38,439 bases of DNA from a virus, in the IMG/VR virus record IMGVR_UViG_3300031975_000202, positions 1 through 38,439 of that record, one strand, 5' to 3'. Shown piece after piece: positions 4,067-34,169 of the stretch. The notes below the pieces were generated by a model that was not told where the DNA came from, searched no databases, and saw only the letters and a program-made list of their open reading frames with translations. A program made the translations under genes and the position numbers. Each line of letters begins with the position of its first letter. Position 1 is the first letter of the stretch.

Positions 4067-4453
4067 TTATGCTCGTGTCACACCACGGGGGTCGTTTACT
4101 ATAGCTTCGATTGAATCATCGTTCATTAAACGATACTCAACACCACCAACTTTAAATCTTGTGCCTGTATTTGCACGGAACATCACGTAGTCCCCTGGAT
4201 TACACCAAGGTTTATCTCCGAAACGTTCCTTATCTGAATATGCCTGCTCGCCCATATCTACTACAAGACCTATGATCGACATAATATGCTCTTGGTGCAT
4301 AGTTGTAGATGTTTTTAGAAGTTTAGTGTTTTCATAGGTTTCTTCTATTTCAGGCATAGCGACAAGCAAACGGTATCCTACAGGTATAGGTAACTGTACC
4401 TCTAGTTCTTGTTCCGTCATTTCTTCAGGTATTAGTTCTGCTACTTTAGTCAT
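4067..4453 (-). CDS. GroES-like co-chaperonin (Cpn10 fold)
   Basis: 128 residues. There are ATGs at 4462, 4459 and 4453; the last (MTKVAEL) has the best spacing to GGAAG. Residues 24-128 align with the GroES core: PVGYRLLVAM (first strand), a loop at about 40-57 in the position of the GroES mobile loop, IIGLVVDMGEQAY (matching GEVLAVG), then NPGDYVMF (matching VGDIVIF) and DDSIEAIV (matching ESDILAIV). GroES caps the host GroEL folding chamber; phage relatives such as T4 gp31 adapt GroEL for capsid protein folding. The gene sits between portal and scaffold genes, which fits a capsid-folding job. The mobile loop is not clearly of the Ile-Val-Leu type. There is no GroEL gene in the window, so it would work with the host chaperonin. 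Confidence 0.75.
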   Translation of the reverse strand: MTKVAELIPEEMTEQELEVQLPIPVGYRLLVAMPEIEETYENTKLLKTSTTMHQEHIMSIIGLVVDMGEQAYSDKERFGDKPWCNPGDYVMFRANTGTRFKVGGVEYRLMNDDSIEAIVNDPRGVTRA

Positions 4454-4646
4454 TATCATCATCTTCCATATAATTGCGCGAGAGGTCTTCTATGTATTGT
4501 ATGCTGGACTCAAGACCCCGTATCAGTCCAGTAACTTCCTTATACTGAGCAAAGTCTTTTGGACCCCCAGAAGTAAGAAATTCAGTTGCGTTAGCTTTTT
4601 CAGCTACGATTTTTTCTTTAAGCACGTCAAAGACGGTTTTTGCCAT
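4446..4646 (-). CDS. small helical protein between portal and co-chaperonin genes
   Basis: 66 residues, MAKTVFDVLKEKI onward, with a YKEVTGLIRGLESSIQYIEDL helix and a very acidic end (EDDDND). It begins on the last base of the portal stop codon and overlaps the following gene, so it is translationally coupled on both sides. Small proteins with a similar YxxVTGxIRGLE segment are common next to portal genes in marine podovirus-like phages, where their function is unknown. A DNA-packaging or portal-assembly accessory role is only a guess from position. Confidence 0.6.
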   Translation of the reverse strand: MAKTVFDVLKEKIVAEKANATEFLTSGGPKDFAQYKEVTGLIRGLESSIQYIEDLSRNYMEDDDND

Positions 4647-23963: not shown

Positions 23964-24653
23964 ATGACTGAAGTATATAAAATTGAGAACGTTGAAGCCC
24001 TATGGCCTAGAATAGATCAGCCGTATCACTTTAACGAGAAGGCTAACAAATCTATGCCTTGCGGTGCTAGAGATCAAGGTGCGGAATACTCTATAGAGTT
24101 TCGTATGGACAAGGATGTAGCACAGAAACTACATAAAGAAATGTCTGCTTCTTACACACAAAACCGCCAAGATAGCTGGGCGGCTAAATTAGAAATACCT
24201 TTTGTTAAAGAAGATGATGGTAGGTACAAACATAAGTCTAACATAAAAGGTCAATATAAAGGACGGCTAACACAAGTCCTTCAAGTTGATTCTAAGGGTA
24301 ACAGGTTACCGAGTGACTTTAAACTAACGACAGGTAGTACGGCTAACATATATGTAGAGTTTGTTCCTTATAAGATGGGCGCTAATTGCGGCGTTAGTCT
24401 ACGTTTAAAAGCTGTACAAGTTGTTAAGTACTACGAATACTCAGCCCCTATAGAGTTTGATATAGTTGAAGGCGGGTATACTATGGACGGAGAAGACGAT
24501 ACTTTAGTCATCCCTCCTGTAAACGAAACTGCAGATTCTTTTGGCGAAGAGACTGTAGAAGAGCCTAAGAAAGCCGCCAAGAAGACAGCACCTCCGCCGA
24601 CCGCTGCCACTGAGGACGACTTGAGTTCTATTGTTGAAGATTGGGACGACTGA
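23964..24653 (+). CDS. single-stranded DNA-binding protein (gp2.5-like)
   Basis: 229 residues. The N-terminal about 170 residues look like an OB-fold domain, with aromatic and basic residues suited to single-stranded DNA (ARDQGAEYSIEFRMDKDVAQ, then KGQYKGRLTQVLQV). A Pro/Ala/Lys linker and a very acidic C-terminus ending SSIVEDWDD follow. An acidic tail is the usual docking site for polymerase and helicase, as in T7 gp2.5. It lies just before the primase-helicase. The domain call rests on layout and position more than on a strict motif. Confidence 0.75.
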   Translation: MTEVYKIENVEALWPRIDQPYHFNEKANKSMPCGARDQGAEYSIEFRMDKDVAQKLHKEMSASYTQNRQDSWAAKLEIPFVKEDDGRYKHKSNIKGQYKGRLTQVLQVDSKGNRLPSDFKLTTGSTANIYVEFVPYKMGANCGVSLRLKAVQVVKYYEYSAPIEFDIVEGGYTMDGEDDTLVIPPVNETADSFGEETVEEPKKAAKKTAPPPTAATEDDLSSIVEDWDD

Positions 24654-24671: not shown

Positions 24672-24746
24672 CACTGCGGCTAGGTTACGCCGAAAAGGGT
24701 GATATGCTGTCACCCCTGCCGCAGTGTCTTTTGGAAACGGCGGGTG
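24672..24746 (+). promoter_or_regulatory. bistable RNA leader in front of the primase gene
   Basis: State 1: CACTGCGGC (24672-24680) pairs with GCCGCAGTG (24718-24726), and inside it GGGTGA (24697-24702) pairs with TCACCC (24710-24715). State 2: GCCG (24718-24721) pairs with CGGC (24738-24741), and CACCC (24711-24715) pairs with GGGTG (24742-24746), which overlaps the ribosome-binding site of ATG 24753. The two states share bases and exclude each other. State 1 leaves the site free; state 2 hides it. This is the layout of a riboswitch or protein-controlled translational switch. No known riboswitch class was recognised. Confidence 0.55.
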
Positions 24747-24752
24747 GAGATT

Positions 24753-27545
24753 ATGGAAACAAAGAATTTTTTAAGGAGAGTACTAGGCGGTGATGGTTTC
24801 TACTGCTTCTGTGCTTTTAGTGAACAGCGTAAGATAACAAAGTTTTATACGGATATTGACGCTGTTGCATTTGCATCTGTTAGTTTAGATGCGCAAGGAT
24901 ATGATACATATTTTGGGGTATCTACGTTTGATACAGGTAGCTCTCGTAAAGTAAGCAATGTAAAATACATTAACTCGTTTTTTCTTGACTTAGACTGTGG
25001 TACTAACAAGGATTACCCTAGTCAACGTGACGCACTTAACGACTTACGTAGATTCGTAAATAAGTTATCTTTACCAAAACCTGTTATGGTGAGTAGTGGT
25101 AATGGGGTACATGTCTATTGGACGTTGGCAACCCCTTGCCCAGTGGACGTATGGCTACCTGTAGCACTGCGCCTAAAGAAATTATGTGTCGAACATGGGT
25201 TACAGGCAGATGCGGCTGTGACTGCGGATGCCGCTAGAATTTTGCGTATACCAAACACGCACAACTATAAGAGTGACCCACCAACAGAGGCGAAACTTAT
25301 AGGGGATATGGACTCAGCACCGATTGTAGACTTTGACGAGTTCTCTGATTTACTAGGTGGTGGCGTACCCGAAGAACAAAAATTTTCTACAAGTTCTATA
25401 ACAGCTATGTTGATGGAGAACACAGAGCACGTGTTTAAAGACATTGTTATAAAGAATCAACGAGGCACAGGGTGTGGGCAGTTAGATAACATTATTAAGA
25501 ACCAAGAAGAGATAAGCGAGCCCTTGTGGAGAGCAGGTCTATCTATCGCTAAATTCTGTGTAGATGCTGACAAAGCCATACATTATGTATCTAAGAAACA
25601 CGTTGGGTACGACTACGATGCTACAGAGGAGAAGGCTAATCTTATAATAAAACCGTACCTATGTAACACATTTGACGAATACAATCAGGATATATGTCGA
25701 GAGTGTCCCCATTGGGGTAAGATAAAGTCTCCCATTGCGTTGGGCAAACGAGTTAAGGAAGCGGAGGAAGAGGTAGAAGCTCCCGCAATGAACTTACCTA
25801 ACTCTCCAATTAACAAGTATGTTATACCTAAATACCCTAGACCGTACTTTCGCGGTGCGAATGGTGGTATATACATACAAGTTCGTGACCCTGATGGAGA
25901 TCCAGTAGATAAACTGATATACCATAACGACTTATACGTTGTTAGAAGATTACGAGATATAGAGGTAGGCGAAGCTATCGTTATGCGCCTACATCTGCCA
26001 AAGGATGGGGTAAGAGAGTTTACAATACCTCTTACTGCGGTAACATCAAAAGAAGAACTACGTAAACAGCTTGCTATGCAAGGTGTAACCTTATCAAAGA
26101 TGGAAGAACTTATGCAGTATGTAACAACGTGGGTAAATGAGCTACAGGCACAGACAGAGGCAGACGAAGCGCGTAGGCAGTTTGGTTGGACTAGTGATGA
26201 GGGTGGTTCCTTTATACTAGGTAACCAAGAAGTCTTTAAAGATAAGGTGGGGTTTAACCCACCATCAACGCAGACAACAGGTCTGTTTCCTTCATTTGAA
26301 CCTAGAGGTACATTAGAGGATTGGAAAGATACCATAGACTTCTATAACCGCGAAGGGTTTGAGTTACATCAGTTTGTTGTAGGCACGTCCTTTGGTTCAC
26401 CCTTAATGCAGTTCTCGCCTATAAACTGCGCGGCTTTACACATACATAGTAAGGAATCGGGTGTAGGTAAGACTACAGCTATGGTGGCAGGTGTATCTGT
26501 GTGGGGTGACCCCGAAGATCTGATACTCTTAAAGGAAGATACATATAACACAAAGATGAACCGTGGTGAGATATACCATAACCTACCTTTATATATGGAT
26601 GAACTTACTAACATGAAGCCTTGGGAGCTATCTAATCTTGCCTACCAACTAACAGGTGGCCGTCAACGTGGACGTATGACTGCGAGTGCGAATATTGAAC
26701 GGCATAGAGGAGAAGCTTGGAGATTACTAACTGTTACTACAGGTAACGCAAGTGTGGTAGAAAAGATTGGTTTGGCTAAATCTATGCCCAAAGCAGAAGC
26801 CCAGAGGATACTAGAAGTTAAGGTTAGTCGAAAATTTTTTAGTTCTGATAGTAAACAGGAGACTGATAAATTTAGCGGTGCGATAAAGAATAACTACGGA
26901 CACGCAGGTGTGGTCTATATACAATACATTATGAATAACATGGAGGAAGCTAGGAAACTTTTAAACGAAGTACAGACTAGAGTTGACCGTGAGGCAGGGT
27001 TAACTGCGGAGAACAGGTTCTGGTCAGCTCTTGTTGCCTCTACTGTGACAGGTTTAATACTAGCTAAACGTGCGGGACTAATTAATTATGATACCAGTAA
27101 GGTCTTTTCTTGGGCCGTTGATAGGTTGAAGGAAAACAAACTACAAGTAGAAGATATGAGCATATCAGTCGAAGAAACTTTAAATGATTACATCCATGAG
27201 CATTGGAGTAATGTGTTATGGATCAAGAGTACGGATGACTTACGCAATGCTGATGTTACACAGTTAGTTATACCAGAAGCATTGCCTAGAGGTAAGTTAG
27301 TTGCGCGGTATGAAACAGATTTAAAACGAGCGTACCTAGTACCAAAACCATTGAAGGAATGGTGCGGTAAACAGCAGATAAACTACGCCTCATTTATAAA
27401 CGATCTTACGGCTAAACTTGGAGCCACAAAAAAGAAGATGCGTTTAAGCAGAGGTACACATATGAACTTACCTCCGACATGGGTTATAATAGTGGATTGT
27501 TCGATAGAGTATGAAGAAGATGCAGGGGATACTGAGGACGCATGA
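24753..27545 (+). CDS. primase-helicase fusion (AEP primase plus DUF927-type ATPase)
   Basis: 930 residues from ATG 24753 behind GGTGGAG; an upstream GTG-initiated extension would cover the RNA leader and is rejected. Residues about 10-215 are an archaeo-eukaryotic primase domain: FFLDLD (76-81, metal site), SGNGVHVYW (115-123) and RILRIPNTHNYK (162-173). A primase C-terminal helical part with a Cys-containing end (DICRECPHWG) follows. From about 470 there is a DUF927-like ATPase: Walker A SGVGKTT (about 569) and Walker B LYMDEL (about 612). It should lay RNA or DNA primers and unwind the fork together with PolA and SSB. The C-terminal about 150 residues are of unknown function. Confidence 0.88.
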   Translation: METKNFLRRVLGGDGFYCFCAFSEQRKITKFYTDIDAVAFASVSLDAQGYDTYFGVSTFDTGSSRKVSNVKYINSFFLDLDCGTNKDYPSQRDALNDLRRFVNKLSLPKPVMVSSGNGVHVYWTLATPCPVDVWLPVALRLKKLCVEHGLQADAAVTADAARILRIPNTHNYKSDPPTEAKLIGDMDSAPIVDFDEFSDLLGGGVPEEQKFSTSSITAMLMENTEHVFKDIVIKNQRGTGCGQLDNIIKNQEEISEPLWRAGLSIAKFCVDADKAIHYVSKKHVGYDYDATEEKANLIIKPYLCNTFDEYNQDICRECPHWGKIKSPIALGKRVKEAEEEVEAPAMNLPNSPINKYVIPKYPRPYFRGANGGIYIQVRDPDGDPVDKLIYHNDLYVVRRLRDIEVGEAIVMRLHLPKDGVREFTIPLTAVTSKEELRKQLAMQGVTLSKMEELMQYVTTWVNELQAQTEADEARRQFGWTSDEGGSFILGNQEVFKDKVGFNPPSTQTTGLFPSFEPRGTLEDWKDTIDFYNREGFELHQFVVGTSFGSPLMQFSPINCAALHIHSKESGVGKTTAMVAGVSVWGDPEDLILLKEDTYNTKMNRGEIYHNLPLYMDELTNMKPWELSNLAYQLTGGRQRGRMTASANIERHRGEAWRLLTVTTGNASVVEKIGLAKSMPKAEAQRILEVKVSRKFFSSDSKQETDKFSGAIKNNYGHAGVVYIQYIMNNMEEARKLLNEVQTRVDREAGLTAENRFWSALVASTVTGLILAKRAGLINYDTSKVFSWAVDRLKENKLQVEDMSISVEETLNDYIHEHWSNVLWIKSTDDLRNADVTQLVIPEALPRGKLVARYETDLKRAYLVPKPLKEWCGKQQINYASFINDLTAKLGATKKKMRLSRGTHMNLPPTWVIIVDCSIEYEEDAGDTEDA

Positions 27546-27777: not shown

Positions 27778-27820
27778 GACCCGTCTGGCTAGGTATTAAC
27801 TACGAAGGCGGGTCATTTTT
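27778..27820 (+). terminator. terminator at the convergence of early and late genes
   Basis: GACCCG (27778-27783) pairs with CGGGTC (27809-27814), with an inner TAG/CTA pairing, followed by ATTTTTATT. It lies 34 nt after the stop codon at 27744 and abuts the stop of the leftward giant gene, so it protects late genes from antisense transcription. It works in the plus direction only. Confidence 0.8.
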
Positions 27821-30800
27821 ATTCAAACAGTTGAAGTCCTTGATCCCATTGAGCGGAGTTTTCTTTCATAGCTTGATCTAATGCCGTTGAAAATTTTACC
27901 CCGTGGTGCATAAGGTTTGTGGTTTTTCTGTGCGCTTTCATAGACTTCTGAATTGTTTTACCACTAATTACATGGTCAGGATGTCTTTTATTAAACTCAT
28001 CCATATCTTTTTGTATATCTTGCAACTCGTTCCAATCACCTACAGTGTTAGCTATATAATATTTTTTTAATAATTTACTGCGTTTTTTGTTGGCGGCAGT
28101 GTCTATACCTTTAAGTATACTGTTTCTTTCTTGTTGAAATGTATATCCTGTGGGCGCAAACCCAACAAACTGTCCAAACTTTTCGCCTAGAGACACGTCA
28201 TCATATATAGGATCACCACGCCTGGTTTTGTATCCACCTTCAGTATTTATCCTACCAAGTCCTGGAAAAACTTTAAACACATTGGCTATGCCCGCAGGGA
28301 GAAGACTTTCGATTCCTCTTTTTCCTTCTCCGTTGTATATATCCATCCCACCTCTAATTAGTCGTTTGCCTGTGCTTAGAGCAGGACCGCCAAGGTGAAA
28401 GCCAAGAAAACCTTCTACATCATCTGGACCTCTAACTTGGTTATATCTGTTGTTTTGTATTAACAATCCAGTTAACCTAATTCTGTTAGAAACATCTATA
28501 CCTGCCATTGTAGGTACACCCTTAAAGAACCCTTCTCCAATATACTTACGTACAATAGTATCAACATCTTCTTCCTCGTCATCTAAGAAGAATAGGTTAA
28601 AGAACATACTAATAGCGCCGTATAATGGTATGCCGTACACGCCTGCAAAGAATAATGCTGTAGCATGAATACCTACGATTTGTTTTATTGCAATTTTACG
28701 TTCTTCTTTAGTAATATTAGATCTATCTAACGATCTTATAGTAGATTTAATCATAGTGTAATACATTTGAAGTCCGTAGGGTTTATACATAAATGCCACA
28801 CGACCCAAATTATTTTGAGATATACTCGGCGCTGTTTCCAACACAGTACCGCCATTTGTTTCTTGCGCATTATATATAGCGTTTGTAGCCGCTTCGTTTT
28901 TTTGTGCCGCAGTGGGTTTAGTTTTTCCTTTGTTTGTTAATCTATCTATATCTAGTTTGTACGCGGCGAGTATAGTAACTTGTCGGTTAAATCTCTCGCC
29001 GTGGTTAAAAGGTATGGCAGAAAAAGCTGAAATTCTATCTGCAACACTACGTTCTCGACCTGATTCATCTAACCCTAAAGCGTCTTGCAAAAAAGAAGTT
29101 GTTAACAATCCTCGTTCCGTTGCCATTTTTACAACAGGTGCAAGTTCTGTGTATTCTTTTTCTAATCCTTTAGTTAGTTTAAGATCTTTTTTTAGTATAT
29201 AAGTACCGTCTTCTGCTACATCATACATATCAGTTATATTGTTTTTTGCTGATGTTACTAATTTACCCATTGTACCTATTTTTCGACCTGTTTCTTCATA
29301 CCCGTACCTCGCTCCTAAATAAGGCATAACAAACAAAGGGACTTGCGATAGGTTAACAAGAGCTGATGATATGTTAAATCCGATTGTGTATATGAACGCT
29401 CCTTGGTTTAAAGCTTTTGATATACGTTGTAATGGTGGGTTTTTTGCGTAATCAAGTCGTCTGTTTAATTCTTGTCGTATTTCTCCAAACGATTTTTTAG
29501 CTGTAGGAGGTTCAACTAAGTTGTTTATTTCTGTCTGTAATTTACTTATGGCTGCGCCCCATTTTAACCTTTGTGTCTGTCTTCCTAGATCATAAGCTTT
29601 AGTATTTAAAGCAACTGCAGTATCGGCTATAAATCCTGGCGTGTTTTTACGTTTTTGCAATGTTTTGTAAAAAGATGACGCTGGTAAAGAACTTGTGTAT
29701 ATTTTTATAAAATTTTCTATAAAATCAGCAGGTACACGTAATGTTTTGCCGTCTTTGTCTTTCCATGTCCTACTTAATATATCTATGGTTTGAGATACAA
29801 AAGCTGTTGGCGGCGCTTTCTTTTTGTATTCCTCATTTGTAAATTCATCTTCTTTAATATTTATAGTTTCTGTTCTTACATCGGGGTTTGTTTTAAGATC
29901 TTCTGCTGCGTACTGACGTTCAAGATCAGTACTAAACATTTCAAATACATAGGGATCTGAGCCAGCAGGTACGGATTCTGGTTTTAAACTATAAGATAAC
30001 GCGTAAGTACCTTGACGTACTAATGGAAAATATACCTCCAAGTCGCCTATTTTAAATATTTTGTTAAGAACTTTTCTTTTATACTCCGAAGCTATTTCTG
30101 AGGTCGCAACATCATCAACACCCTTCCCCATAGTTTGTTTAAGATCTGTCCATTGTTTTTCATAAAGCGAACTCATTTTGTTATGTTGGATTTGCCCGCC
30201 AGATTGTTTTAAAGAGTTCCATTTCTTTTCATTTTTGTTCCATATATTCATTTTTTCTCTTTGAGGAGGGAGTTTAACAGCGTCATATTTAGGGTCAGAA
30301 AACCTTCCATCAAAATCAGTATTACGTTGTTTTTTATCTTTATAGTATTTTCTTTTAACGTCACCTTTATCATTAGTGTACTCTAAAATATATCGAGTAT
30401 ATTTTTCTTCCGCTTGTGCGCGAGTAAGTGTTGGGTCTACTTGTCGTATGGTAGATCCAGTTTCGGCATTATAAATTAAATCATCTAATACTTTTTTTTC
30501 TTTAGGGTTAGCTTTAGACCACTTTGCAAACTCTTGGTAAATTTTGTATACTTTTCCATCAGAAATATTTACAGCTCCACGTTGAAATTGCATCGTTTTA
30601 TCAGCAGTGTCCCCTAACTCACCAAAACCTGCTCCTTTAGCTATATCTCCCAAACCTTGAGAACCTACTAAAGACAAGTATCCACGAGTAAATGCTTTTT
30701 TACCTACTTTTAAATATTCGTTAGAATTTGCAGCAAATTTAGTTCTGCCTGCTTTGTCTATCTTACCAGCAAACATCTCATTTATTCTTTCTAGGAAACT

Positions 30801-33800
30801 TAATGTTTGTTTTGTTGAGGCGGGGTTAGAGTTAAGTTTCATAATCCCTGCGTTTCTAAATTCAGGCGCGGAAGCTAAAAGACCTTCGTATATATCGTTA
30901 CCGTGAATCAAAGTGTCCATAGCGTCTAGTGCTGTAGCCTCATTAGTAATTACTTTGGGATCAAATTCGGGTATGTATGTAAGAGCTACAGTCTTCTTAC
31001 CTGTTATTCTACGGAAGAAGTTAGCTATAATATTCTTTACTCTTTGAAACGCACTTATACGTTCACCTTTGATATATACAGATGCCAGTGTTTCTTGGAA
31101 CTCAGGGTTACTCATAACTTCCGCTACAAATTCCTGTAAATTAGTTGACCCATAAGCAGTGCCTGTCAAACCTTTAATATCTTCAAATAGAATATTTATT
31201 TGGTTTCTAGTGGGACTAGATTTGTTATCTAACTCTGCAGATACAGCAGCGTGAGCCATCTCATGTAGTAACGTGTGAGTATTTAAACCGCTATCTGCAT
31301 TTAAACGTATAGTATTAGTCTTGGGATCAAACGACCCCGCAGAATCCATAGTATCTACAACTTCTATCTTTGTAGTACCTGTATATTTTATTAACCTATT
31401 AGCTAGTTCGGCAATACTGCTGTTAGGATTTGTATGTACCAAATCAGCTAACGCAAGAGACAGCTCCCCATTTCTAAGGAGTGCTATAGTTGACGGGCGT
31501 ATTGGTATGTCCATATCAACCACGTACTCTTCAGGAAGTTTTTTTCTAAAAGTACCTTGCACACTATCAGTTTCAGGTTCCCAACCTTCACGTAAGTTTT
31601 GGTCTTTTGCACGTTTAACTGCCGCTTCTCTTTTAGCTTTATCTTTTAGATCATTATTTGTATTAGCATTTTGATTTACGTATGTGGCTCTAGTGGTCTC
31701 AAACCAATTTACAGTTTCGTCTGATAGGTTTTTGTTGACCCATGTTCTAAAGTTGTCCCCAGCTTTTTTATTCATACCTACATAGTAAGCGTCAATAATT
31801 TTTTCGTCTGTTTTCTTTATTTGACCACTTTCTATGGCAGACGCGTATGCAGCGGCATCTAAAGCCTGCATCATAGTAAGGTGTTTGTAAAAAAATTTAT
31901 TAGGTTGTCGAGACTTAAATTGTGTAGTTTCTAATATAACCTCCATGTCTCGGACACTTAATGGATTTTCTGGTGGAGATTTTACTTTTGCTGCAATATG
32001 AAACTTTTTTACATCAGAATCCATATTGGTAAGAATAATATCATCAAACTCTTCTTTTAAACCTTTTTTATCTTTAGACACTTCAGAATCTTTTAGTAGC
32101 TTTCGCCCTTGTTGTATTCTTTCTTCTTGTTCTTTCATAATAGTCTGAACTTCAGCTCTGTCTTCTATATTCCTAATAGCTTGCAATGATTTTTTATATT
32201 TTTCTACTGCATCTATTTCTGTTTGACCTGTTTTAATGTTATTTATAGCTACCAACATTGCGCCGTTTACGGCTTGTACTCTGCTCAGTCTTTCTTTCGC
32301 AGGTATAGTTTTGTCGTTTTTAATTTTATCTTTTTTAGCTTCGAATTTTTTTCTAGCTACATCTACATTAGCCTTTCGACTCCTAGAAATAGCTTCACCC
32401 GCATCAAAAACATCCCCTGCTGCATCTAAGTCAGCGTCTAAAGTTGATACAGGTTTTGGTATAACCTCTGGTGTAACTTCTGGTGTAACTTCTGGTGTAA
32501 CTTCTGGTGTAGTTTCTTGGAAACCTTCAATTGATTTTACCGCGTCTCCTAAATTATTTGCGGCATCTGTTGCGCCCCCGACTACTCCTTCTGGAGTTAT
32601 TAGCCAATTTTTGGTTTCAGTATTGTTTTTAGGATTTTCTACAGTATAACGTTTGTTCTGTAATTTTCCGTTTTTATCACGAAAAGTTTTATCTATTATA
32701 TAATCACCATTAGGCTGTTTATTTTTTGTGGTACGAACCTCTGTAACTTCTGCTGGAGCTTCTGGTGCTGCCTCTGTTTCTGGTGCTGCCTCTGGTGTAA
32801 TCTCTGGTGTAACCTCTGGTGTAATCTCTGGTGTAATCTCTGGTATAACCTCTGGTGTAATCTCTGGTGTAATCTCTGGTATAACCTCTGGTGTAACCTC
32901 TGTTGGAGCTTTTTGTTCTATTGCATCTCCTATGGCATCTAAGTCATCAGTTAATGTATCATCGACTTCGCTTTTTGTGTCATCAACAGATTCAATTTCA
33001 ACGCTATCTGGAGCCACTCCAACCTCGTCAGGTGTTGTAAGTCCCTTGGCACTCTTTGTTTCGCCCCCCTGTACAACCTTTGGTCCACTATCTGGAACGC
33101 TAGTTCCACTTGGTGTCTGGATAGGTTTTGTGTCATCTTGTACCCTTTCATCAACTGCTTCAAGTTCTGGCTCTGGTTCTGAGTCTTTTATTGGTTTTGC
33201 TGCCTCAAGTTTTGCTGCTTCAACTTCGTCTATTATTCTTTGGTTCTCCGCCTCTCTTTCAGTTTCTGCTCGCATTTCTGCTGTAGTGGCTCTTACATTA
33301 CCTGCACCACCTACAGTACCACCAATTAGACCTGCGGCCACACCTGCATCTGTATACTCTGTTATGGCTTCTTCGTTTAATAATGGTAGCCCAGCCTGCG
33401 CTCGTTCGAGCACCTGTTGCCCTATTTCAGTGGGTATCTCTACCGTAGCACCGCGCCCTGCGCCTTTAGCTACACGGGTAAACACACCTCCACCTTTCAT
33501 GGCCGCACCTGTAAACATACCACCAACTAACATTCTGTCTACTATACCTTCCATAGTAGCTTGTGGTATAGCTGTTAAGAACGCTGCTGCCTCACTTACC
33601 TGACTTCTATCTCCTCCAGCCACATCAATTTGACGTTGGCGATTCCAACCATAGAATAAAGGTAGTTGAGAAGCTATAGCAGCGGGAGCACCGCCAATTA
33701 CACCTGAAGCAATACCAAGACCCATAGGGCCTGCTGATTCTCCTAATGACTGACCAAAATAACTTAATGCGGTTCCAAAATCTTTTACGTCTTGCCGTCT

Positions 33801-34169
33801 TATAGCAGAAGGCTCGGCCCTTTGTAACGCGGCCTCATTGTCCATAGCTATGTCAGCACCGTATTCTTCAAGCCCCTCAAGACCTAAGATTTTACCAATA
33901 CCTTCCATACTACTGCCAACACCTTCTTGAGTTAGTTTTGCAGTGTTGGCTAGGCCACGACCTAAAGCTGTACGATTTGCATTTTTATAATCTTCTTGAG
34001 CTTGCAAATACGCTTCTTCGCTTGGACTTATACTGTCTGCATATTTTGAAGCTGACTCGCTCCGCACCATGTCTTCAACAGCGGCAATAATTTGCGCGTC
34101 TTGTGCGCCCTCTGGCCCCTCTACTTCGAATAAGCTTCCATCTGGCCCTTCTACTTCATATCGTGCCAT
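27819..34169 (-). CDS. giant internal virion protein with metalloprotease motif
   Basis: 2116 residues. Order: an N-terminal region opening MARYEVEGPDGSLFEVEGPEG; Ala/Gly-rich hydrophobic helices (about 145-290); a long Glu/Pro/Val/Thr low-complexity linker with VTPE/ITPE repeats (about 420-570); a helical region; a zinc-peptidase motif HEMAH (H969-H973, in LLHEMAHAAVSAE); a large central region; hydrophobic stretches (SSALVNLSQVPLFVMPYLGA, and a FFAGVYGIPLYGAISMFFNL region); and a C-terminal end with GLGRINTEGGY and TGYTFQQERNS like LPD38-type regions of polyvalent phage proteins. Such proteins are packed in the capsid and ejected with the DNA to cross the envelope. The peptidase could cut host or virion proteins. 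No lysozyme domain was recognised. Confidence 0.82.
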   Translation of the reverse strand: MARYEVEGPDGSLFEVEGPEGAQDAQIIAAVEDMVRSESASKYADSISPSEEAYLQAQEDYKNANRTALGRGLANTAKLTQEGVGSSMEGIGKILGLEGLEEYGADIAMDNEAALQRAEPSAIRRQDVKDFGTALSYFGQSLGESAGPMGLGIASGVIGGAPAAIASQLPLFYGWNRQRQIDVAGGDRSQVSEAAAFLTAIPQATMEGIVDRMLVGGMFTGAAMKGGGVFTRVAKGAGRGATVEIPTEIGQQVLERAQAGLPLLNEEAITEYTDAGVAAGLIGGTVGGAGNVRATTAEMRAETEREAENQRIIDEVEAAKLEAAKPIKDSEPEPELEAVDERVQDDTKPIQTPSGTSVPDSGPKVVQGGETKSAKGLTTPDEVGVAPDSVEIESVDDTKSEVDDTLTDDLDAIGDAIEQKAPTEVTPEVIPEITPEITPEVIPEITPEITPEVTPEITPEAAPETEAAPEAPAEVTEVRTTKNKQPNGDYIIDKTFRDKNGKLQNKRYTVENPKNNTETKNWLITPEGVVGGATDAANNLGDAVKSIEGFQETTPEVTPEVTPEVTPEVIPKPVSTLDADLDAAGDVFDAGEAISRSRKANVDVARKKFEAKKDKIKNDKTIPAKERLSRVQAVNGAMLVAINNIKTGQTEIDAVEKYKKSLQAIRNIEDRAEVQTIMKEQEERIQQGRKLLKDSEVSKDKKGLKEEFDDIILTNMDSDVKKFHIAAKVKSPPENPLSVRDMEVILETTQFKSRQPNKFFYKHLTMMQALDAAAYASAIESGQIKKTDEKIIDAYYVGMNKKAGDNFRTWVNKNLSDETVNWFETTRATYVNQNANTNNDLKDKAKREAAVKRAKDQNLREGWEPETDSVQGTFRKKLPEEYVVDMDIPIRPSTIALLRNGELSLALADLVHTNPNSSIAELANRLIKYTGTTKIEVVDTMDSAGSFDPKTNTIRLNADSGLNTHTLLHEMAHAAVSAELDNKSSPTRNQINILFEDIKGLTGTAYGSTNLQEFVAEVMSNPEFQETLASVYIKGERISAFQRVKNIIANFFRRITGKKTVALTYIPEFDPKVITNEATALDAMDTLIHGNDIYEGLLASAPEFRNAGIMKLNSNPASTKQTLSFLERINEMFAGKIDKAGRTKFAANSNEYLKVGKKAFTRGYLSLVGSQGLGDIAKGAGFGELGDTADKTMQFQRGAVNISDGKVYKIYQEFAKWSKANPKEKKVLDDLIYNAETGSTIRQVDPTLTRAQAEEKYTRYILEYTNDKGDVKRKYYKDKKQRNTDFDGRFSDPKYDAVKLPPQREKMNIWNKNEKKWNSLKQSGGQIQHNKMSSLYEKQWTDLKQTMGKGVDDVATSEIASEYKRKVLNKIFKIGDLEVYFPLVRQGTYALSYSLKPESVPAGSDPYVFEMFSTDLERQYAAEDLKTNPDVRTETINIKEDEFTNEEYKKKAPPTAFVSQTIDILSRTWKDKDGKTLRVPADFIENFIKIYTSSLPASSFYKTLQKRKNTPGFIADTAVALNTKAYDLGRQTQRLKWGAAISKLQTEINNLVEPPTAKKSFGEIRQELNRRLDYAKNPPLQRISKALNQGAFIYTIGFNISSALVNLSQVPLFVMPYLGARYGYEETGRKIGTMGKLVTSAKNNITDMYDVAEDGTYILKKDLKLTKGLEKEYTELAPVVKMATERGLLTTSFLQDALGLDESGRERSVADRISAFSAIPFNHGERFNRQVTILAAYKLDIDRLTNKGKTKPTAAQKNEAATNAIYNAQETNGGTVLETAPSISQNNLGRVAFMYKPYGLQMYYTMIKSTIRSLDRSNITKEERKIAIKQIVGIHATALFFAGVYGIPLYGAISMFFNLFFLDDEEEDVDTIVRKYIGEGFFKGVPTMAGIDVSNRIRLTGLLIQNNRYNQVRGPDDVEGFLGFHLGGPALSTGKRLIRGGMDIYNGEGKRGIESLLPAGIANVFKVFPGLGRINTEGGYKTRRGDPIYDDVSLGEKFGQFVGFAPTGYTFQQERNSILKGIDTAANKKRSKLLKKYYIANTVGDWNELQDIQKDMDEFNKRHPDHVISGKTIQKSMKAHRKTTNLMHHGVKFSTALDQAMKENSAQWDQGLQLFE
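32459..32513 (-). repeat. 12-bp tandem repeats encoding VTPE (second block)
   Basis: On the minus strand, repeats encoding TPEV follow each other at 12-bp spacing inside the giant virion protein gene, near residues 552-570. They are nearly identical at DNA level (TTCTGGTGTAAC on the plus strand), suggesting recent slippage. Confidence 0.75.
32737..32910 (-). repeat. 12-bp tandem repeats encoding V/I-T/I-PE (first block)
   Basis: About a dozen units of the TCTGGTGTAAYC type on the plus strand encode alternating TPEV, TPEI, IPEI and TPEA, then PETEAAPEAPAEV. They form an extended acidic Pro-rich linker. Several units form a higher-order 36-bp pattern (two TPE units, then one IPE unit). Confidence 0.8.

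Follow-up and report, generated by a model that had tools for sequence, protein, structure and literature searches.

An int-alpA RNA before a viral primase gene: a candidate antisense leader resembling C4

The original description of the int-alpA RNA (Rfam RF02996) is reportedly a 2017 paper in Nucleic Acids Research. The name implies a place between an integrase gene and alpA, which forms no part of Rfam's score criterion. The Rfam entry prints a structure without a pseudoknot and files the family as a small RNA; in the literature searched, int-alpA is named merely as present in some strains, and the accession RF02996 was not found. The C4 antisense RNA of phages P1 and P7 (RF01695) is cut at its 5′ end by RNase P. 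In phage P1, where Rfam finds C4, the annotation places target a2 directly behind the RNA and target b2 on the ribosome site of icd. The b′ loop of C4 partly occludes the ribosome site and a′ confers specificity (PMC5320573). A further likeness is offered by the CI RNA of phage P4 (seqA, seqC), which is leader-derived, has two complementary sites and controls replication genes (PMC4825925).

Here we compare with these RNAs the leader of a primase gene in a marine phage DNA of 38,439 nucleotides (IMG/VR record IMGVR_UViG_3300031975_000202), the whole of which is referred to as the window. T1 denotes the site immediately following the RNA, and T2 the stretch leading up to the next start codon, where the next gene has its ribosome site.

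The int-alpA RNA between the SSB and primase genes

Positions 24673–24740 of the window match int-alpA over the full model (1–71), scoring 47.8 bits (cut-off 35.8) with an E-value of 5.1e-7. The leader has the three-way junction of the family with its conserved CUAG and GAAA junction strands, and shares with it the outer stem of 8–9 bp and the tail. Membership is close to certain. The features of the locus are as follows.

23964–24653, plus strand: gp2.5-like SSB gene (phrog_112, E 8.4e-17)
24672–24726, plus strand: int-alpA-type RNA, three-way-junction domain (outer stem, hairpin 1, linker, hairpin 2); matched by Rfam and conserved in 46 leaders
24672–24680, plus strand: outer stem 5′ arm CACTGCGGC, exact complement of 24718–24726; pairing probability about 0.76
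24683–24691, plus strand: hairpin 1 (GGTTACGCC, 3 bp); third pair changed on both sides among relatives
24692–24696, plus strand: junction linker GAAAA; the CUAG and GAA strands, either side of hairpin 1, are conserved in the family
24697–24715, plus strand: hairpin 2 (GGGTGATA-TGC-TGTCACCC); double changes in six of six scored pairs; loop the putative antisense element in relatives
24718–24726, plus strand: outer stem 3′ arm GCCGCAGTG, exact reverse complement of the 5′ arm
24727–24752, plus strand: tail and ribosome-binding region; T1 site in relatives, here TTTTGGAA, without a clear loop complement
24737–24742, plus strand: ACGGCG, weakly complementary, with two G-U pairs, to TGCTGT at 24705–24710 in the hairpin 2 loop region
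24738–24746, plus strand: CGGCGGGTG, proposed alternative partner of 24711–24721; overlaps the Shine-Dalgarno region GGTGGAG, without covariation support
24753–27545, plus strand: DUF927 primase/helicase gene, which owns the leader (PF06048, E 4e-26; phrog_8841 DNA primase/helicase, E 6.3e-45)

The SSB gene stops 18 nt upstream of the RNA, of which the window holds one copy. A sequence-only reading of this DNA had proposed a new riboswitch or translational switch at this place. A structured and conserved RNA does stand directly before the primase gene; because it forms the three-way junction of a catalogued family, it is not a new riboswitch, and the claim of novelty falls. Lying between SSB and primase genes, in a record without a tyrosine integrase match, the window member differs from the placement beside an integrase gene that the family name implies. 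Further members that pass the cut-off are located upstream of a tail fibre gene and of genes without known function, so that location does not define the family.

A GenBank search for close phage relatives gave no DNA match to the window. The primase has distant protein matches alone, at less than 60% identity, and no relatives of it were found in the bacterial genomes searched.

The minus strand carries another catalogued phage RNA, Mu-gpT-DE (Rfam RF03012, 60.4 bits), at 886–939, between the major head gene and the gene at 235–888. It ends at the start codon of the latter, whose Shine-Dalgarno sequence falls within the motif, and may be another translation-controlling leader. Also on the minus strand are a 2116-residue protein (27819–34169), the C-terminal part of which matches DarB-like antirestriction proteins (phrog_10089, E 4.1e-47), and, in the head gene cluster, a 131-residue protein (4067–4462) matching phage GroES-like co-chaperonins (phrog_3188, E 2.9e-9).

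Conservation of the fold and weak support for a second pairing

Both helices of the sequence-only reading are present. The arms of the 9-bp outer stem, CACTGCGGC and GCCGCAGTG, are exact reverse complements, as are GGGTGA and TCACCC of the inner hairpin (24697–24702 with 24710–24715), which can be extended to 8 bp. The folding energy of the leader is ordinary when set against shuffled sequences (z −0.33 over 147 nt), so that energy alone is uninformative and proves nothing.

Primase relatives drawn from viral contigs provided 67 distinct leaders, and 46 sequences, including the window, could be parsed into the same three-way junction. Since hairpin 2 is out of register between clades in the MAFFT alignment, base pairs were counted on a scripted segment parse. 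Among 26 distinct leaders, standard pairs fill 99.8% of pair cells, against 84.0% with shuffled partners, and 12 of 18 base pairs show compensatory changes on both sides; in these counts the positions of the hairpin 2 stem were chosen by a script that favours pairing, whereas those of the outer stem in this marine set were not. None of ten representative relatives passes the Rfam cut-off, the relatives being mostly too divergent for the model. Pattern scans of viral contigs, some of which recur, located at least 182 such RNA sites, at least 150 of them directly before the same primase. In four of the leaders (L004, L011, L012 and L013), the tblastn match to the primase starts about 1.1 kb upstream of the true start, where there is an HTH/excisionase-like frame that begins MNEPFVPIEDLAKHFSVSISTVRAWVRQKHIP; the primase is still directly preceded by the leader of int-alpA type.

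In the primase tree the junction occurs on both sides of the midpoint root, and several lineages are reduced to plain hairpins. The junction is therefore dispensable in those related genes; each of the related leaders that were read has some hairpin in this place. The constancy of a hairpin, plain in several lineages, is what would be expected of a processing or stability element that shapes, cuts or insulates the SSB–primase mRNA without any switching. Such an element leaves unexplained both the conserved junction bases and the loop covariation described below, and we regard it as quite unlikely.

The switch envisaged in the sequence-only reading depended on a second fold, in which the 3′ arm of hairpin 2 turns to the GGGTG of the ribosome site. 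The pairing is literally present, as CACCC(CT)GCCG at 24711–24721 can pair with CGGCGGGTG at 24738–24746 around a 2-nt bulge, but it is weak: its ensemble probability is 0.001 (0.1%), at a cost of about 5 kcal/mol, and 4–10% of shuffled tails do as well (the whole hairpin half is equalled in 385 of 4000, its 3′ arm alone in 157 of 4000). The arm has changed from CACCC to TACCT in L005 and L009, with compensation within the hairpin, while the GGGTG of the ribosome site is constant; the second fold is thus not kept by compensation. The nearest relatives show no compensatory changes for it, which is the outcome that the same reading had named as refuting its proposal. Between the 3′ arm and the ribosome site, the marine leaders give a modest signal for own over swapped partners (clade p 0.008), mostly from the window clade, and the genome members of the family give none. 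The pairing element of the family is the loop of hairpin 2, not its 3′ arm. A pairing of the linker CCGAAA with the tail TTTTGG was also considered and rejected, its own pairs scoring lower than swapped ones.

Complementarity of the hairpin 2 loop to T1 and T2

For most marine clades, the hairpin 2 loop has its complement in the tail immediately following the outer stem. Examples of loop and T1 are TGCCGA/TCGGCA (L015), ACCGA/TCGGT (L028), GTGCCG/CGGCAC (L115), TGTGTCA/TGACACA (L078) and GCACC/GGTGT (L040). The coupling of loop and T1 is significant by clade permutation (p 0.0007, nine clades); that of loop and T2 is weak in these leaders (clade p 0.04). The window and its nearest relatives are without a good match at T1, the window loop matching weakly as TGCTGT/ACGGCG, and loop complementarity at T1 appears to have largely decayed in the window's own clade.

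The family was also followed in bacterial genomes, being present in 40 of 369 sampled from one class; the first pattern matches were mostly from Betaproteobacteria. In 49 parsed genome members, the hairpin 2 loop is complementary to both T1 and T2. Own pairs score 15.19 at T1, against 11.81 (sd 0.32) for swapped ones, and 13.98 against 12.00 (sd 0.31) at T2, with none of 5000 shuffles reaching the observed value in either case; the loop boundaries and T2 windows were set by script and the exact scores depend on those choices. Own pairs also exceed swapped ones at both sites when one member per distinct loop is taken. Standard pairs amount to 98.3%, against 67.3% after shuffling. Control segments in the same members gave no sign of coupling, whether taken from hairpin 1, the 3′ arm with the junction, sequence upstream or coding sequence downstream; kinship among the sequences inflates own-versus-swapped counts, an effect that the controls and the clade test limit without removing. 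Applied to 28 C4 members, the own-versus-swapped test recovers the known pairings, with 22.36 against 15.29 for b′ and 16.04 against 13.5 for a′.

In all 38 members that have both pairings at a score of 12 or more, at least three loop bases are common to the T1 and T2 matches. The two pairings use the same loop bases and are therefore mutually exclusive. In some members the sites at T1 and T2 are identical: the loop CTCTCAC faces GTGAGAG in L289, CGCACCTTG faces CAAGGTGCG in L288, and CCTTCAAA faces TTTGAAGG in L284. The logic of a switch with two partners, which the sequence-only reading had seen in the window, accordingly holds for the int-alpA family, where one element has two alternative downstream partners, one of them a ribosome site; the specific pairing that it named does not.

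Some phages carry two or three int-alpA copies before different genes. In these, the loop scores 14.67 and 12.5 against its own T1 and T2, and 11.11 and 10.83 against those of the other copy. This multiplicity bears on the idea of a ligand-binding riboswitch, with the junction (CUAG, GAA) as aptamer and the T1 pseudoknot as expression platform. Nearly invariant junction bases amid variable stems, and a pseudoknot adjoining the Shine-Dalgarno sequence, would suit such a device. Several copies per phage before different genes would not, and the downstream genes examined (primase, tail fibre and many proteins of unknown function) have no common pathway. We consider a riboswitch very improbable, and a ligand as the switch signal, as once suggested for this leader, is not supported.

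In one set of phages (L423, L434, L457, L467, L480 and L481), T1 and T2 are separated by a terminator-like hairpin with a U-run. Directly after the U-run comes T2 (for example TACAGGGAA), the ribosome site of the following gene; in L481 that gene is phrog_6737-like. The arrangement suggests a termination or read-through step. In Klebsiella phage P12620-1 (L245), a single element contains a gene whose E. coli copies are annotated as integrase, the int-alpA RNA directly after it and, about 5 kb downstream, a homologue of the DUF927 primase; the RNA region has copies in 25 of 5426 E. coli genomes.

Proposed mechanism and comparison with C4 and P4 CI

Taken together, we think it rather likely, from sequence comparison, that the RNA is an antisense leader switch like that of C4, with a single loop for two targets, of which T1 has decayed in the window clade. 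The loop of hairpin 2 would act as an antisense element against its own mRNA, pairing either as a cis pseudoknot with T1, directly 3′ of the RNA, or with the next gene's Shine-Dalgarno region, T2. Pairing at T2, on the same transcript or from another copy of the RNA, would lower translation of that gene, and pairing at T1 would occupy the loop. Control of translation by the pairing, its repressive direction and its mode of action, cis or trans, are matters that we infer from these complementarities. The marine primase leaders keep the three-way junction and, in most clades, the T1 pseudoknot with compensatory changes. From its position a few bases upstream of the Shine-Dalgarno sequence, this pseudoknot would adjust how much primase is made relative to SSB. 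The window clade, having lost most of its loop complementarity, may have a weaker or a rewired switch.

The same layout would also serve an antisense RNA acting in trans in the strict sense of C4 or P4 CI: a domain of about 70 nt, released by cleavage or by termination as a stable small RNA, would repress the next gene on other transcripts and so confer immunity or control of superinfection. As in C4, a three-stem RNA is followed by a site just 3′ and a second at the ribosome site; some int-alpA members adjoin a tyrosine integrase gene, and L423, L434, L457 and L467 have the terminator-like hairpin between T1 and T2. The window record, by contrast, lacks a tyrosine integrase match, the settings are not obviously those of immunity (an SSB–primase row in the window, tail fibre or unknown genes elsewhere), and an upstream shared sigma-70 promoter does not rise above shuffled sequence. 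We hold this version to be unlikely.

For the family at large, we would tentatively extend the leader switch to a widespread class of phage regulators in which a single loop may choose between a cis decoy, T1, and a ribosome site, T2, with each copy tuned to its own gene and used for replication, tail and other genes; this extension is plausible. No description of such a choice by the loop of int-alpA was found in the sources searched. The loop complementarity rule would give an RNA previously catalogued as a small RNA a concrete and testable function, and extends int-alpA to marine phages, where it precedes a replication enzyme gene.

The rule also ties int-alpA, by its way of working, to C4, the classic immunity RNA. 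Both are three-stem leader RNAs; in each, a first site follows closely downstream, another coincides with the next gene's ribosome site, and the hairpin 2 loop can pair with the latter. C4, however, has separate segments, a′ and b′, for its two sites, whereas int-alpA members use one loop for both, in mutually exclusive pairings. The junction strands also differ, C4 having none between the two hairpins and 7 nt before the 3′ arm, and the C4 model gave no match to the window leader even at E-values up to 10. With its C4-like layout but single loop, different junction and lack of a C4 match, the leader would work like C4 without being a member of that family. The CI RNA of P4, which we liken to int-alpA by description, differs in acting through transcription termination and in having one site on each side of the RNA.
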